32,695 nucleotides of DNA from a virus. Each line of letters opens with the position of its first letter. Position 1 is the first letter of the stretch. Location: positions 1 through 32,695 of the IMG/VR virus record IMGVR_UViG_3300020465_000060; one strand, written 5' to 3'. The notes under the pieces are model-generated. The model was not told the origin of the DNA. It was given only the letters and a program-made list of their open reading frames with translations, and did no database searches. Position numbers and translations under genes: made by a program. This document shows, one piece after another, positions 564-20,700 of this stretch.

Positions 564-661
564 TAACAAAAGACATACAAAAGTACTCAAAAAAGTGTTA
601 TTTTAGTGATATAAGTTTTCCACAAAAAGTAATAGTTTTTCCACACAATCTCCACAATTAG
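560..661 (+). CDS. Candidate micro-ORF (33 aa) with a strong ribosome binding site
   Basis: ATG at 560 overlaps the previous stop (ATGA) and is preceded at 548-554 by AAGGAGG, a near-perfect Shine-Dalgarno sequence with a 5-base spacer, the strongest in this part of the window. The frame runs 33 codons to TAG at 659-661. Two DnaA-box-like sequences lie inside it (616-624, 637-645), so part of this DNA may instead be kept as a binding region. No family is recognised. The ribosome binding site favours a real product, but the shortness and odd composition (many Phe, Lys, His) keep confidence low. Confidence 0.4.
   Translation: MITKDIQKYSKKCYFSDISFPQKVIVFPHNLHN
616..645 (+). promoter_or_regulatory. 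Two tandem DnaA-box-like 9-mers
   Basis: TTTTCCACA occurs at 616-624 and again at 637-645, start to start 21 bases, about two helical turns, so both face the same side of the DNA. A degenerate third copy (ATCTCCACA) follows at 648-656. TTTTCCACA matches the DnaA-box form known from cyanobacterial oriC regions. Binding is inference. Confidence 0.5.
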
Positions 662-668
662 ATTAACA

Positions 669-857
669 ATGAAGTATAGACAATTAAGGGATGAGTTACT
701 GTTACTTAGTGAAGAACAGTTAGATACACAAATCCTAGTATTCTCAAAGGAAGTGAATACTTTTCGTCAGTTAATTGCATCGGTTAAATATACAACAATG
801 GAGGAAGAATTTCAGTATGGAGTTGATACTGGGCTGCCTTATATTTGCGTGGAGTAA
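669..857 (+). CDS. Hypothetical small phage protein (62 aa)
   Basis: A 62-residue protein beginning MKYRQLRDELLLLSEEQLD. The N-terminal pattern (Y-R-x-L-x-x-x-L-x-x-L-x-E-E-Q-L-D) is one I recognise from small conserved proteins of marine T4-like phages. The rest is probably a small alpha/beta fold ending ICVE. The function is unknown. It is separated by 7 bases from the preceding micro-ORF and is followed by the long region without a gene, so it closes the upstream run of small genes. Confidence 0.65.
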   Translation: MKYRQLRDELLLLSEEQLDTQILVFSKEVNTFRQLIASVKYTTMEEEFQYGVDTGLPYICVE

Positions 858-870
858 GTGTTAATTACTA

Positions 871-978
871 ATGATTAAAAAGGTATTATTAAATGTATAT
901 GAAAGGTGTATAGATACCTGTGGAAAAGTGTATAGAATCGGTGTTGAATCCTTATGCCTTAAATGTTACTTTCTTTAG
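871..978 (+). CDS. Doubtful micro-ORF (35 aa, cysteine-rich)
   Basis: A 35-codon frame beginning MIKKVLLNVYERC and ending CLKCYFL, with four cysteines as C-x3-C and C-x2-C, which could suggest a tiny metal-binding fold. There is no ribosome binding site at a proper distance (GGAG lies 16 bases upstream), and a DnaA-box-like 9-mer (919-927) lies inside. It may be chance. Confidence 0.2.
   Translation: MIKKVLLNVYERCIDTCGKVYRIGVESLCLKCYFL
919..927 (-). promoter_or_regulatory. DnaA-box-like 9-mer (minus strand)
   Basis: TGTGGAAAA, the complement of TTTTCCACA. It belongs to a 15-base exact direct repeat, TACCTGTGGAAAAGT, at 915-929 and 1144-1158. Confidence 0.45.
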
Positions 979-1056
979 TGATCTTGGCGTTCATTCTATC
1001 ATAAATCGGCAGAAAAGTCAACCCCCTTCAGTATAAGTCAGCAGACCACAGTATTT

Positions 1057-1085
1057 TTGACAGAATAACACTTTTCGTGTATAAT
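1057..1085 (+). promoter_or_regulatory. Perfect consensus sigma70 promoter (P1)
   Basis: TTGACA at 1057-1062 and TATAAT at 1080-1085 with exactly 17 bases between: a full match to the bacterial housekeeping consensus, so host RNA polymerase could read it without phage factors, as expected for an early promoter. The predicted start is near 1092. No gene follows for about 545 bases, so its transcript has a long leader or is non-coding. Confidence 0.75.
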
Positions 1086-1132
1086 AGTACTATGAAAGTA
1101 TCAACGACCTTATGAACAGTTAGTAACAACAG

Positions 1133-1156
1133 TTTTCCACAATTACCTGTGGAAAA
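1133..1156. repeat. Inverted pair of DnaA-box-like sites
   Basis: TTTTCCACA at 1133-1141 faces TGTGGAAAA at 1148-1156 across a 6-base spacer: a perfect 9-bp inverted repeat. It could be a paired protein-binding site or a hairpin. Confidence 0.6.
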
Positions 1157-1395: not shown

Positions 1396-1594
1396 CGTGT
1401 ACTTATGAGTTAGTGACATTTAGGACACGTATTTGCGCCCTTATGTTAAAAACGGTAGAGACCCTAACCTACAGAGGTGACAATTCGAGAGAGTGATATA
1501 AGGATATAGAAAAAATTCTGAGATATAAAACGCCCTTCAAATACCCACAGCACATAAAAATTCCCCTGGCTATAAAAGTAGCACAGGGGTTTTT
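1381..1594 (+). ncRNA. Candidate non-coding RNA of about 210 nt
   Basis: Bounded by promoter P2 (start near 1381) and the strong intrinsic terminator ending at 1594, with no credible ORF between; the longest visible start is a 17-codon frame at 1443 without a ribosome binding site. GTATTTG occurs at 1381-1387 and 1429-1435, and both copies can pair with CAAATAC at 1538-1544, so two alternative long-range folds are possible. The existence of the RNA is inferred from these boundaries alone. A longer form from P1 would be about 500 nt. Confidence 0.35.
1563..1594 (+). terminator. Strong intrinsic terminator
   Basis: CCCCTGGCTA (1563-1572) pairs with TAGC-A-CAGGGG (1579-1589), a 10-bp stem with one bulged A and loop TAAAAG, followed by TTTTT (1590-1594). 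The A run just upstream (AAAAA before the stem) gives weaker terminator character on the other strand. It closes the 858-1636 control region. Confidence 0.85.
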
Positions 1595-3559: not shown

Positions 3560-5433
3560 TGGCATTTAAGCAGTTTACAAACCTAGATTTTAACGATTTA
3601 CGTGCTCAGATTAAGGATTATCTGAGATCAAACTCCAATTTTACGGATTTTGACTTCGAGGGATCCAACTTTTCTATATTAATCGATACTTTAGCGTATA
3701 ATTCTTACATTACTGCCTATAATACTAACATGGCAGTCAATGAATCGTTCATTGATAGTGCTACTTTAAGGGAAAATGTTGTATCATTAGCACGAAATAT
3801 TGGTTTTGTACCTCGTTCTAAGAAATCTGCGGTTGCAACAGTTAGTTTTACAGTAAATGTAAGTGGAATATCAGCAAGAAGTGTTAAATTGAATGCTGGA
3901 CTTGTAGCTTTAGGTTCAGTTGAGAATGGAAATTACATATTTTCGGTTCCAGAAGACATAACAGTCACTCCAAATAGCAATGGAATTGCAACTTTCTCGA
4001 ATATTTCAATTTATGAAGGCAATTTCCTAGAAAAGAAGTGGGTAGTTAACGATTCTTTACCAAGTCAGAAGTATATTATCCCAAATGCCAACGTAGATGC
4101 ATCAACAATACGTGTTACCGTTGGAAATGAGAATTTTGAGTCTTATTCAAACATTTTTGATGTAGATGCATCATCAAGATTGTTCCTTACACAAGAAATT
4201 GAAGATGAAAAGTACCAAATTTTGTTTGGAGACAATATTTTAGGTAAAAAACCAAAAGCGTTAGACGAAATTACAGCAACTTATATCGTTAATAATGGAT
4301 CTGCTGGTAATGGAGCAGCAAATTTCACTTTTGCTGGTCGTTTAACCTATCTTTTTGGTGGTGTAGAGACAGATATTACTCAAGGTATCTCTCTTATAAC
4401 CACTACACAAGCGTCTGAAAACGGTGATGAGATAGAATCTATAGACAGTATTAAATATCTTGCTCCAAGAGTCTATGCATCCCAATATAGAGCAGTCACA
4501 TCGCATGATTACATTGGATTGATACCATTTTTATACCCAAATATTGACTCTGTGAGTGCATATGGTGGTGAAGAGTTGGATCCACCACAATTTGGAAAGG
4601 TTTATGTGACTGTAAAACCTAAAAACGGTGAAGTTTTATCGGATGTTGCTAAAGATTCGATTAAAAATGACTTGAAAAAGTATACAGTTGCAGGAATTAA
4701 ACAAGAATTTATTGATCTTAAGTATCTTTACGTTGAATATGACTCTACTGTATCGTATGATTCAGGGTTTATCTCTAATAGCCTTGATTTAAATTCAAGA
4801 ATTATATCTTCAATTCAAAAATATTCTAAATCTGCTGATATTAATTCATTTGGTGGACGTTTAAAGTATAGTAAATTACTTTCTCAGATTGATAATGTTG
4901 ACACTGGAATCACTTCTAACATTACAAAACTTATAATGAGGAGGAATATGGTTCCTGCATATAATCAACTTGCTACTTACGAGTTGTGTTATGCTAATCA
5001 ATTCCATGCTGATTTAGAAGGATTTAACATCAGATCATCTGCATTTAAGATTGATGGTGTTGATGGTGATGTTTTTATGACTGATTTACCAAATGCAGAT
5101 GGAAAAACTGGAGTTATCAAATTCTTTACTTATAATAATTCTACAATAAATTATATTAATGATAATGCTGGTACAGTTAACTATACCAAGGGTGAAATTA
5201 TAATTTTCCCACTTACAATTATATCTACAACCTTAACTGAAAGAATTGAAGTAGAAGTAACTCCTGAATCAAATGATATTGTCGCAAAAGAGAGTCTTTA
5301 TATTGTGCTAGATACTACAGGAAACAGTAAATTAACCTTATTGGAAGATGTTATTGTTTCTGGTTCTAATAAATCTGGAACCAATTATACTCCACCATCA
5401 AGTTTCATTAGCAGTAAAAAATATACAAGATAA
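3559..5433 (+). CDS. 6: Baseplate wedge subunit gp6
   Basis: A 624-residue protein, close to T4 gp6 (660 aa). The N-terminus (FTNLDFNDLRAQIKDYLRS, then SILIDTLAYNSYITAYNTNM) is the typical gp6 helical region. A baseplate-J-type core follows around residues 215-255 (YQILFGDNILGKKP and YIVNNGSAGNG), and a beta strand/helix region around 335-375. Six gp6 dimers form the inner ring that holds wedges together and triggers sheath contraction. The start overlaps the gp25 stop by one base, and gp7 follows after 3 bases. The C-terminal 130 residues are Thr/Ile/Asn rich and beta-like. Confidence 0.93.
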   Translation: MAFKQFTNLDFNDLRAQIKDYLRSNSNFTDFDFEGSNFSILIDTLAYNSYITAYNTNMAVNESFIDSATLRENVVSLARNIGFVPRSKKSAVATVSFTVNVSGISARSVKLNAGLVALGSVENGNYIFSVPEDITVTPNSNGIATFSNISIYEGNFLEKKWVVNDSLPSQKYIIPNANVDASTIRVTVGNENFESYSNIFDVDASSRLFLTQEIEDEKYQILFGDNILGKKPKALDEITATYIVNNGSAGNGAANFTFAGRLTYLFGGVETDITQGISLITTTQASENGDEIESIDSIKYLAPRVYASQYRAVTSHDYIGLIPFLYPNIDSVSAYGGEELDPPQFGKVYVTVKPKNGEVLSDVAKDSIKNDLKKYTVAGIKQEFIDLKYLYVEYDSTVSYDSGFISNSLDLNSRIISSIQKYSKSADINSFGGRLKYSKLLSQIDNVDTGITSNITKLIMRRNMVPAYNQLATYELCYANQFHADLEGFNIRSSAFKIDGVDGDVFMTDLPNADGKTGVIKFFTYNNSTINYINDNAGTVNYTKGEIIIFPLTIISTTLTERIEVEVTPESNDIVAKESLYIVLDTTGNSKLTLLEDVIVSGSNKSGTNYTPPSSFISSKKYTR

Positions 5434-17719: not shown

Positions 17720-20700
17720 ATGACACAGAATACTAATTTAAATGTCTCTCCATATTTTGATGATTTCAATGAAGACAAGAACTATAATAAAGTTCTATTC
17801 AAACCTGGATTTCCACTTCAAGCGAGAGAATTAACAACTCTACAATCAATTCTTCAGAATCAGATAGAAAGATTTGGTCAACATTTCTTTAAGGAAGGTT
17901 CTATAGTAATTCCTGGTGGGACATTTTATGATGATAGTTATTTTGCAGTAAAGATAGATCCAAATTTCCTCAATATACCAGTCTTTAATTATACAAAATT
18001 CCTTGTAGATAATAATATAGAAATAGAAGGAGAAACTTCTGGAGTAAGAGCGACTGTAGTTAATAGACTAACTACACCTGAATCTATTGCTGGTTATGAT
18101 ACATTATATGTAAAATATTCAAAATCTGGAAGGGATGGAGTTACTAAGACATTCCAAGATGGGGAAAATTTAATTACTTTGTCAGATATTTCATTTTTGA
18201 ATACAAGTATTGGTGCTAATAGTCCATTTGCTAGATGTGTTATATCTGAAGCTTCTAAAACTGGATGCTCTTTCTCTGTTAGTGAGGGTATATTCTTTAT
18301 TAGAGGATATTTTGTTAAAGTTCCAGATTCTACTGTAATTTTAGATCAATATACCAATTTGCCTAGTTATAGGGTTGGTTTACTTATCAATGAAGAAATA
18401 GTACGTGCATCATCTGTCAATTCTGATCTTTATGATAATGCTAAAGGATTTTCTAATGAAGCTGCTCCTGGTGCTGATAGATTTAAAATCTCTGCTACTT
18501 TACACAAGAAAGCACTTACAGATAAGAATGATTTAGACTTTATTGAATTATTACGTGTCGAAAATGGAATTGTAAGGCATATTGTAACTAGAACACAATA
18601 TAATATTCTTGCAGATGAACTTGCAAGAAGAACTTATGACGAATCTGGAGATTATTACGTCAAACCTTTTTCTCTTGATGTAAGAGAGTCATTAAATGAT
18701 AGAGTTGGAAATAGGGGTATATATTATTCCAATCAACAAACTCAAAATGGAAATACACCATCAGATGATATACTATCACTTCAAGTATCCCCAGGAAAGG
18801 CGTATGTAAGGGGTTATGAGGTCGATAAAATATCTACTTCGTCTATTGATGTCGTTAAACCAAGAACGACCAAGTTAAAGGAGAATGCAAGTACTCCTAT
18901 AAGAATTGGAAATTACGTTGATCTTGAGAATGTTTGGGGTTCACCCACTATTGGATTCTCTACAAGTGTAAAATTACTTGATAGAAGATGTAAGGATAAT
19001 GGAGAAGCACATAGAGATTCTATTGTTGTTGGACAAGCAAGAGTATTTGATTTTAATCAGAAGAGTATATCTGGAGTTTCTACAACAACTCATGAGGCAC
19101 GTCTATATGACATTCAGACCCACACAAAGGTCTCATTGGGTGCAACCATAGCATCTGTGCCAAATAGCGCACAAATTAAAGGAAAATACAGTGGATCTAT
19201 TGGATTTGCAACTGATGCAAGTACGGATACTCAATTAATCGTTATGAGTGATGTTAGTGGCCAATTCCAATTAAATGAACCTATTTTAATTAATGGAAAT
19301 GACACTGGTAATAATATTACTGAAGTTACTGATTGGTCATTTGATGATATAAAGGCACTTAATAGTGAATCTGGTATTGGTGCTGGAACTTCTACTTTTG
19401 CTGCTAACTTATTATTAGATCGTAGAAAGGGTACATTCAATGAAGGAATTGAATTTAGTTTTTCAGGAAGTGCTGTCCAAAGTGGTGGTGTATCAGACTT
19501 TAGAGGACTTGTTAAAGTTGGTGATATATTAACTTATAGTCTTAGCACTGGACTTCCTGTATACAATAGAGTAACAGATGTCGATCAAACTGCTCTTACT
19601 ATCGAAGCAGTATCCAATGTTGATGGAGTATGTAGTGGAGTCTTGGCAAGTGGTACAACCCCAACTGGTGTAGATGTTCTTATCCCTTCCATTAAGCAAG
19701 GTGATAATCCTGGATTTAGAATGAAGTTACCACATAATTATGTGTCGTCGATTAATATTCTTGATAGTTCTTATATTGTAAGAAAACAATTTACTAATGT
19801 TACTATCAGTTCGGTTGCTTCTCACACTTTCCAGATAACTGCTCTTTCCGATAATGCTGATTTATATTTTGAACCATTTACAGAACAAAACTATAGTTTA
19901 AATTGGAGTACTGGAGAAAAGGAAATAGTTAGAGAGTCACAAGTTACAATTAGTGCAAATTCCAAAGAACTTGAAATTAAAACTCTTTCAAAAACAGGAA
20001 CAGCAACTCTTACTGCTTCTGTAAGAAGAAGTAAACTTTCATCTAAGGATAAAGATTTAGTAAGATGTGCTAATCTTATTATTACACGATCAAATGATAC
20101 TTCATCTGGTATTACAACTTTTACTAAAAATGATGGATTAACTGTGAATAATGTCTATGGAACGAGAGTACAAGATGATGAAATTTCATTGAATGTTCCA
20201 GATGTGAGTAGAATATTGGGAATATTTGAATCTACTGATGGAACTGATCCTGATCTACCATCTGTATCAGTATCAACACAATCTGACACATTTACCAATA
20301 ACGTACTTGTTGGTGAAGAGTTTATAGGTGCTAGTTCTGGTGCTGTTGGTCGTGTAGTGTCCATTGTCAGTGGTACACAGTTGCAATTTGTTTATGAAAA
20401 TGAAAATACATTTGAAGTTGGCGAATCATTTACATTAAAAACTGCTGGTATTTTGGCAACAATTTCTGCTTTAGTTAAAGGTGATACAAATATCACTAAT
20501 AATTATAAGTTGGATGATGGTCATAGAGAAGAATTTGCTGACTATTCTAGAATAGTAAGAAAGAGAGGTGTTACAGCACCATCAAGAAGAATGAGAATAA
20601 TTTATGATCATTATACAAATAATGAAGGTACTGGAACTTTAGAAACAGTTAATAGTTATACTGGATTAGATTATTCAACAGAATTGCCATTTGTTATTGA

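Follow-up and report, generated by a model that had tools for sequence, protein, structure and literature searches.

What does a tight cluster of DnaA-box-like sites do in the genome of a T4-like cyanophage? The question arises from a stretch of viral DNA of 32,695 bases (hereafter called the window), which is recognisable as a fragment of such a phage from its genes for baseplate wedge, head closure and tail sheath stabiliser proteins. The original prediction held that five copies of a single 9-mer, TTTTCCACA, lie close together near the beginning of the window and form a candidate replication origin. An exact-word count on both strands recovered these five copies, all within positions 616 to 1156 and none elsewhere in the window, and their coordinates agree with the proposed geometry of two boxes 21 bases apart on the same strand and two boxes that face each other. 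The sites and the genes beside them are as follows.

616-624, plus strand: DnaA-box-like site 1, exact match to TTTTCCACA
637-645, plus strand: DnaA-box-like site 2, exact match, 21 bases from site 1
648-656, plus strand: degenerate box ATCTCCACA with two mismatches, 11 bases from site 2, a putative member of the array
669-857, plus strand: open reading frame of 62 codons between sites 2 and 3, with a weak match to phrog_1057 (E 2e-4)
919-927, minus strand: DnaA-box-like site 3, exact match
1133-1141, plus strand: DnaA-box-like site 4, exact match, facing site 5 and kept in a relative (L015)
1148-1156, minus strand: DnaA-box-like site 5, exact match, also kept in L015
1837-2583, plus strand: gene termed GT here (phrog_1574, "glycosyltransferase" in some records), a landmark downstream of the boxes

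Comparison with shuffled sequence, which had been proposed as a check, gave an expectation of 0.82 copies per window (mean of 100 dinucleotide shuffles), with a maximum of four, and none of the shuffles reached the five copies observed. At the shuffle rate, the probability that four further sites fall within 541 bases of a given one is approximately 1.4e-9. The relaxed word TTWTCCACA with one mismatch occurs 29 times in the window compared with 29.8 expected and is not enriched, indicating that the signal of the cluster resides in the exact word. An origin of the cyanobacterial type is expected to carry three or more clustered boxes, and five are present here within 541 bases.

Other parts of the local description require adjustment. 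None of the five boxes falls within the 62-codon open reading frame, for which no Pfam match was found, but the span is not wholly intergenic as had been claimed because this reading frame separates the two box groups. Likewise, the AT-rich stretch noted between the groups is indeed the richest of the 50-base steps from 560 to 1860 (0.80 at the step beginning at 860), but the window contains richer DNA (0.88 at 5114). The neighbours of the cluster are phage genes only, and dnaN is not adjacent. In the records of P-SSM2 and S-SSM7, the GT gene family (phrog_1574) stands shortly 5' of gp25 and gp6. Sites 4 and 5, separated by 15 bases start to start, constitute a 9-bp inverted repeat with a 6-base spacer. 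The segment 1133-1156 is foldable and is listed by a terminator scan of the minus strand (two such sites versus 1.4 expected), but a DNA site is preferred over a hairpin or terminator because facing pairs occur with several spacings. No Rfam family was matched anywhere in the window.

The identity of the boxes was evaluated by comparison with host DNA. The entry for cyanobacteria in DoriC 10 gives TTTTCCACA as the DnaA box of the oriC near dnaN. Our host set comprised 50 dnaN loci (30 taken as the best dnaN matches among 194 genomes, four from genomes initially identified by triple boxes, and 16 chosen by size and position), and three or more clustered boxes are present in 29 loci of this non-random sample, or 27 after removal of copies. 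In these 27 nonredundant clusters, same-strand spacings are mostly 9, 11, 21, 32, 43 or 53 bases and back-to-back spacings are 18-19 or 29-30 bases, whereas facing pairs within 60 bases were not found. The corresponding phage set consists of 60 nonredundant clusters, mostly gathered via facing pairs among the matches listed. Their same-strand spacings are mostly 11-12, 21-22, 32-33, 42-44 or 54 bases, their facing spacings are 13-14, 23-25 or 34-35 bases, and their back-to-back spacings are 13 or 19 bases.

The strength of a 10.7-base period is 0.69 for 77 same-strand pairs, 0.85 for 77 facing pairs and a weak 0.40 for 24 back-to-back pairs in the phages, compared with 0.86 for 79 same-strand pairs in the hosts; Rayleigh values for these sets assume independent pairs, and the pairs are not independent. 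Relatives gathered by the GT protein, together with the window, involve no selection for facing pairs, and they exhibit phasing of 0.64 (33 same-strand pairs) and 0.92 (13 facing pairs), with the 10 back-to-back pairs unphased (0.21). Flanking bases are likewise similar in phage and host clusters, with G before the box at frequencies of 0.65 and 0.58, G after it at 0.61 and 0.65, and a second G at 0.43 and 0.54, respectively. Host-like helical spacing and flanks are therefore properties of the phage clusters as a family, and the window itself displays such spacing in its 21-base pair and its 11-base degenerate box alone.

In summary of this comparison, the phage clusters resemble cyanobacterial oriC in the 9-mer itself, the G-box-GG flanks, the same-strand spacings of 11, 21, 32 and 43 bases and the back-to-back spacing of 19 bases. 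They differ in having no dnaN beside them, in the commonness of facing pairs, in showing no skew minimum and in lacking the 9-base spacings of the hosts. A universal core in which one box faces two tandem boxes was suggested by S-PM2 and DSL-LC02, but is not claimed because a third box with two or fewer mismatches lies 9, 11 or 12 bases away in at most 13 of 54 facing pairs. Hosts also vary among themselves. In two small, low-GC genomes, the boxes at dnaN are either degenerate or single, and an exact tandem pair is absent from five of 11 cyanobacterial genomes (four small ones and G139). Judging by size and GC content, the small genomes are probably Prochlorococcus, and P-TIM68, a Prochlorococcus phage, has a perfect pair despite the paucity of boxes in such genomes. 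Separately, some host chromosomes carry a second pair of boxes 21-22 bases apart, away from the main cluster (G167:C1:750113, G071:C1:2252395, G160:C1:2097104, G057:C1:2089915 and G178:C2:207142), which is perhaps a DnaA-regulated promoter.

If the cluster has a function, its position might be expected to recur in related viruses. Among the 80 best IMG/VR matches by GT protein of those listed, 12 carry exact boxes, and all 54 of these boxes are located upstream of GT and none downstream, even though the sequence covered amounts to 188,637 bases upstream and 368,388 bases downstream. The word TTTTCCACA is the most often clustered of all 9-mers in these loci (three or more within 600 bases in 10 of 80). 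L015 shares with the window an identical facing pair, together with the sequence around it (TTTTCCACAATTACCTGTGGAAAAGTATAAA), and has one further box. No exact box occurs in the covered sequence of the remaining 68 relatives, and these include the two nearest by GT protein among the matches listed (L006, with 914 bases covered upstream, and L007, with 5,000).

IMG/VR was also scanned for box pairs no more than 30 bases apart in facing, direct and back-to-back arrangements, and at least 119, 88 and 102 loci were examined, respectively; the last two totals omit loci already obtained by the earlier scans. GT, gp25, gp6 or gp7 is present in 55 of 119 facing, 18 of 88 direct and 47 of 102 back-to-back loci among the matches listed, but in none of 120 loci obtained on the same basis with a reversed control motif. 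Listed loci with GT, gp25 or gp6 carry 561 boxes upstream and four downstream (in ~639 and ~519 kb, respectively). Ten proteins from seven of the remaining pair loci were scanned, and several proved to be terminases of a different phage type. Facing pairs exactly 27 bases apart occur in other phages (L131, L144, L163, L172, L184, L186 and L129) and may be coding sequence; L131, L163 and L184 carry phrog_2 terminases, and that of L163 is nearest to those of Vibrio phages.

These counts bear on the null explanation that the sites have clustered by chance and are without function. That the exact sites differ between relatives, many of which have none, would agree with it, but the shuffle counts, the phasing, the empty reversed control and the exclusively upstream placement near GT render chance clustering very unlikely.

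Because the window is only a fragment, the density of the 9-mer over a whole genome can be evaluated in relatives alone. We used 18 whole cyanophage genomes, which were chosen rather than drawn, and defined a cluster as two or more boxes within 600 bases. In seven of these isolates, a cluster is situated upstream of GT or gp25.

DSL-LC03, 80123-80579: seven of the genome's 10 boxes, upstream of gp25
P-TIM68, 58194/58208: upstream of gp25
Syn9, 52565/52589 (facing pair 52565-52597): upstream of gp25
S-PM2, 19231/19244/19256: upstream of gp25
S-SM2, 58064/58085: upstream of a GT match
DSL-LC02, 24407/24441: upstream of a GT match
Syn33, 46489/46718/46741: upstream of gp25

No cluster was found in the other 11 (P-SSM2, S-SSM7, Sf-FS3, S-SKS1, P-SSM4, P-RSM4, P-HM2, S-SCSM1, S-SRM01, S-B43 and S-CRM01), which have from zero to five scattered boxes each. 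Retention of the sites in relatives, on which the original prediction had been made to depend, is partial: the same place is used in a minority of the GT relatives and isolates sampled here, but many relatives, including the two nearest, have nothing there. The distribution is also patchy on a 43-row GT tree, in which a supported branch separates 29 rows, 14 of them with clusters, from 14 rows that have none. On this tree, the cluster label was not more clustered than in shuffles (76 of 500 as low); in a separate test it was clustered beyond shuffles (9 of 500 as low). The S-PM2 record (NC_006820, 19177-19333; L540 5177-5333) places annotations of tRNA-Asn and tRNA-Leu across its box cluster. 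A tRNA origin of these boxes was rejected, as ARAGORN finds no tRNA in 19177-19333.

Some arrays appear to have changed as a unit. L014 (3524-3631) has no exact TTTTCCACA, but instead has five copies of TTCTCCACA at offsets 0 (plus strand), 56, 77, 88 and 99 (all minus strand), whereas L016 has TTTTCCACA at 56, 77 and 88 after a box matching the first of L014. In L920, five copies of TTCTCCACA are spaced 11 bases apart, and in L960 the two words are mixed. Among the matches listed, three of 120 loci with TTCTCCACA pairs are at the same genome place, one of which is the contig of L014. The same variant is frequent in host clusters (10 near, none far), although the correlation between phage and host over single-mismatch words is weak (rho 0.32, p 0.11). 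The change of a whole array with its spacing kept points to a single binding protein. Together with the DoriC 10 entry, the spacing, the flanks and the recurrent place, this concerted change makes the assignment of the TTTTCCACA sites as DnaA boxes of the cyanobacterial kind, as had been proposed, well supported on sequence grounds.

Which protein, then, is the binder? DnaA domain IV (PF08299) was found in none of 24 phage records (18 isolates and six from IMG/VR, some of them partial), whereas positive controls were detected. This result makes host DnaA the likely binder, and we consider it probable that host DnaA binds the array. An unrelated phage protein that favours the same word might occupy the sites instead: a search with PF08299 would miss an unrelated fold, and phages often have facing pairs, which were not seen in host clusters. 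However, the word, the flanks and the same-strand spacings all match those of host clusters and no record carries domain IV, which makes a phage-encoded binder unlikely. Against DnaA-dependent initiation stands the phage's own replication machinery: the annotation of P-TIM68 includes a polymerase, clamp, clamp loader, helicase, helicase loader, primase, single-strand binding protein, UvsX, UvsY and UvsW, and a T4-type helicase loader and replisome of this kind need not use DnaA.

Additional elements lie near the boxes.

874-901, plus strand: AT-rich motif ATTAAAAAGGTATTATTAAATGTATATG, a candidate unwinding site, with a similar motif in P-TIM68 and S-SM2
982-1000, plus strand: conserved block TCTTGGCGTTCATTCTATC, scored as a pattern of 19 positions
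993-1021, minus strand: leftward promoter-like site, 10 of 12 consensus positions, of a class not above chance there
1057-1085, plus strand: perfect sigma-70 consensus promoter TTGACA-17-TATAAT, the sole 12-of-12 site in the window
1461-1478, plus strand: conserved element ACCCTAACCTACAGAGGT (ACCCTAACCTACARAGGT), downstream of the boxes

The facing pair lies at +41/+56 relative to the perfect promoter in the window, and L015 likewise has a perfect promoter with the pair at +42/+57. Perfect promoters also occur in Syn9 (52741), S-SM2 (58240) and the genome G001 (46116, between its two box groups), and those of P-TIM68 and Syn33 match at 11 of 12 positions; three of the seven cluster-bearing isolates (S-PM2, DSL-LC02 and DSL-LC03) have no promoter with 11 or more matches in the stretches checked nearby. 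Plus-strand promoters with at least 11 of 12 matches are present in 47 of the 60 cluster regions, at a density of 0.88 per kb compared with 0.06 downstream and 0.13 further upstream. Where 500 bases are available on both sides (41 loci), 30 such promoters follow the last box, 10 fall within the span and one precedes it.

This density and polarity would be expected if DnaA served as a transcription factor, with boxes upstream of a consensus promoter timing an early or leader transcript. However, the gap between box and start site ranges from tens of bases to several hundred, overlap of a box with the promoter is infrequent, and a consensus promoter requires little assistance. Box-free relatives likewise have near-consensus promoters, in 27 of 40 cases, within as much as 3 kb of sequence upstream of GT. 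We regard transcriptional control as rather improbable as the main role.

The AT-rich motif and the conserved block (TCTTRGCRYKCATYCTATC) sit between the boxes and the promoter in some phages. The block reaches a score of at least 15 of 19 in 34 of 60 cluster regions, compared with three of 60 on the other strand and none of 60 downstream, using a pattern derived from the window and isolates before scoring. In box-free GT relatives this score is attained in three of 40 (two of 40 on the other strand), which indicates that the block goes with the boxes. There are exceptions: in P-RSM4 the block and a perfect promoter accompany a single decayed box (TTTTCCGCA), and the genome of S-SSM7 has the block and the AT motif but no box. 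Near clusters, the word TAAATGTAT shows a 5.4-fold enrichment that derives from just 11 loci, and cluster regions show no general AT excess over their own loci (0.636 in both).

The element at 1461-1478 is a separate observation. In the form ACCCTAACCTACARAGGT, it was found at no fewer than 103 nonredundant places among the loci covered, 46 of which have a box in the same locus, and is often located ~100 bases before a start codon. It has no Rfam match in the window, and three papers that contain CCCTAACCTACA are unrelated. Within 1346-1594, a promoter-like site (1346-1374), this element and a hairpin followed by T residues (~1563-1594) could bound an RNA of ~210 nucleotides, whose predicted fold is mildly stable (z -1.8).

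The array may instead be a titration site, as the original prediction also raised, or a remodelling site. It would then soak up host DnaA or alter its nucleotide state while phage copies accumulate, and so halt further rounds of chromosome replication in the host, in the manner of datA and DARS. These E. coli loci are described, in the portion of the source pertinent here, as box clusters outside oriC that act on DnaA (PMC5835720), although the host is a different one. The exactness of the boxes, their patchy occurrence among relatives, the facing pairs not seen in host oriC and the want of a general AT excess would all suit such a site. Titration, however, demands no single fixed position, no helical phasing accompanied by a conserved block and no polar relation to a promoter, and some phages have as few as two boxes. 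It ranks second among the possible functions, as a less probable one.

Headful packaging of the T4 type is expected to yield permuted ends, in which case the DNA injected first would not be marked by any fixed internal site. This argues against a DNA-injection stop signal, for which the precedent is the T5 stop-signal region, reported to contain DnaA boxes in the passage concerned (PMC13250531), and we consider such a role here to be highly improbable.

Origin-type use therefore stands first in our ranking, followed by titration and then transcriptional control, but it is favoured only tentatively. Specifically, the region may serve host DnaA as a platform on the upstream flank of an origin-type control region in part of the T4-like cyanophages, and we hold this as a leading possibility rather than a probability. 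Regarding the candidate origin as first proposed, the single place and the polar promoter fit, and the oriC-like arrangement of boxes and the AT motif also speak for it. The GC skew, the AT content, the facing pairs unlike those of host oriC and the box-free relatives do not fit. In none of DSL-LC03, P-TIM68, G001 and Syn9 does the cumulative GC skew reach a minimum at the cluster, although skew is a weak marker where nearly all phage genes are on one strand.

An origin of this type might operate as follows. Upon infection, host DnaA-ATP would bind the helically phased boxes together. Transcription from the consensus host sigma-70 promoter, just downstream and directed away, would leave negative supercoils over the boxes and the AT-rich motif, and perhaps promoter RNA as well. 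The strands would then open at these elements and the first phage replication would begin, possibly with a hand-over from DnaA to the phage helicase, and the phage would later switch to its own recombination-dependent mode of the T4 type. A more ambitious formulation, that a T4-type replisome is started by the host initiator through an oriC-like module written in the host's box dialect, so that replication would be keyed to host DnaA and hence to the cell cycle and light, we consider possible but doubtful.

Known systems provide partial parallels. The R-loop origins of T4 belong to a related phage group with a T4-type replisome and likewise involve a promoter (here, the sigma-70 consensus in the window), but DnaA-box arrays are not known from T4 origins. 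Origins of lambda and of iteron plasmids resemble the phage region in their phased repeats and in a promoter close by, transcription from which may assist strand opening; the pertinent part of one source states that transcription leaves negative supercoiling upstream that may aid opening, and that plasmid origins typically have phased repeats (PMC5043065). In those systems the element's own initiator binds the repeats, whereas the repeats in the phages are host DnaA boxes, and no gene for DnaA domain IV was found in the 24 records searched. Syn9, which is of the same phage group and carries a facing pair, has been predicted to have a single theta origin, and whether other cyanomyoviruses have one is not known (PMC2984593); the section of that review on the Syn9 theta origin makes no mention of DnaA.

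DnaA boxes have been known in other phages, as in a Pseudomonas phage paper whose relevant passage has such boxes marked by Ori-Finder. Among open-licence papers we found no description of a host-DnaA-box array in T4-like phages. A short, testable site that may bear on how T4-like cyanophages begin replication can now be named in cultured phages (Syn9, S-PM2, S-SM2, Syn33, P-TIM68, DSL-LC02 and DSL-LC03). For uncultured phages, the box word might additionally give a clue to the host. If DnaA is used at this site, these phages would be tied to the replication control of their hosts, and if DnaA is trapped there, a lytic phage would have a means to stop host replication. The presence of an array at a characteristic place, in most cases shortly before a strong promoter, suggests that the replication switch of the host is either tapped or trapped by these viruses.
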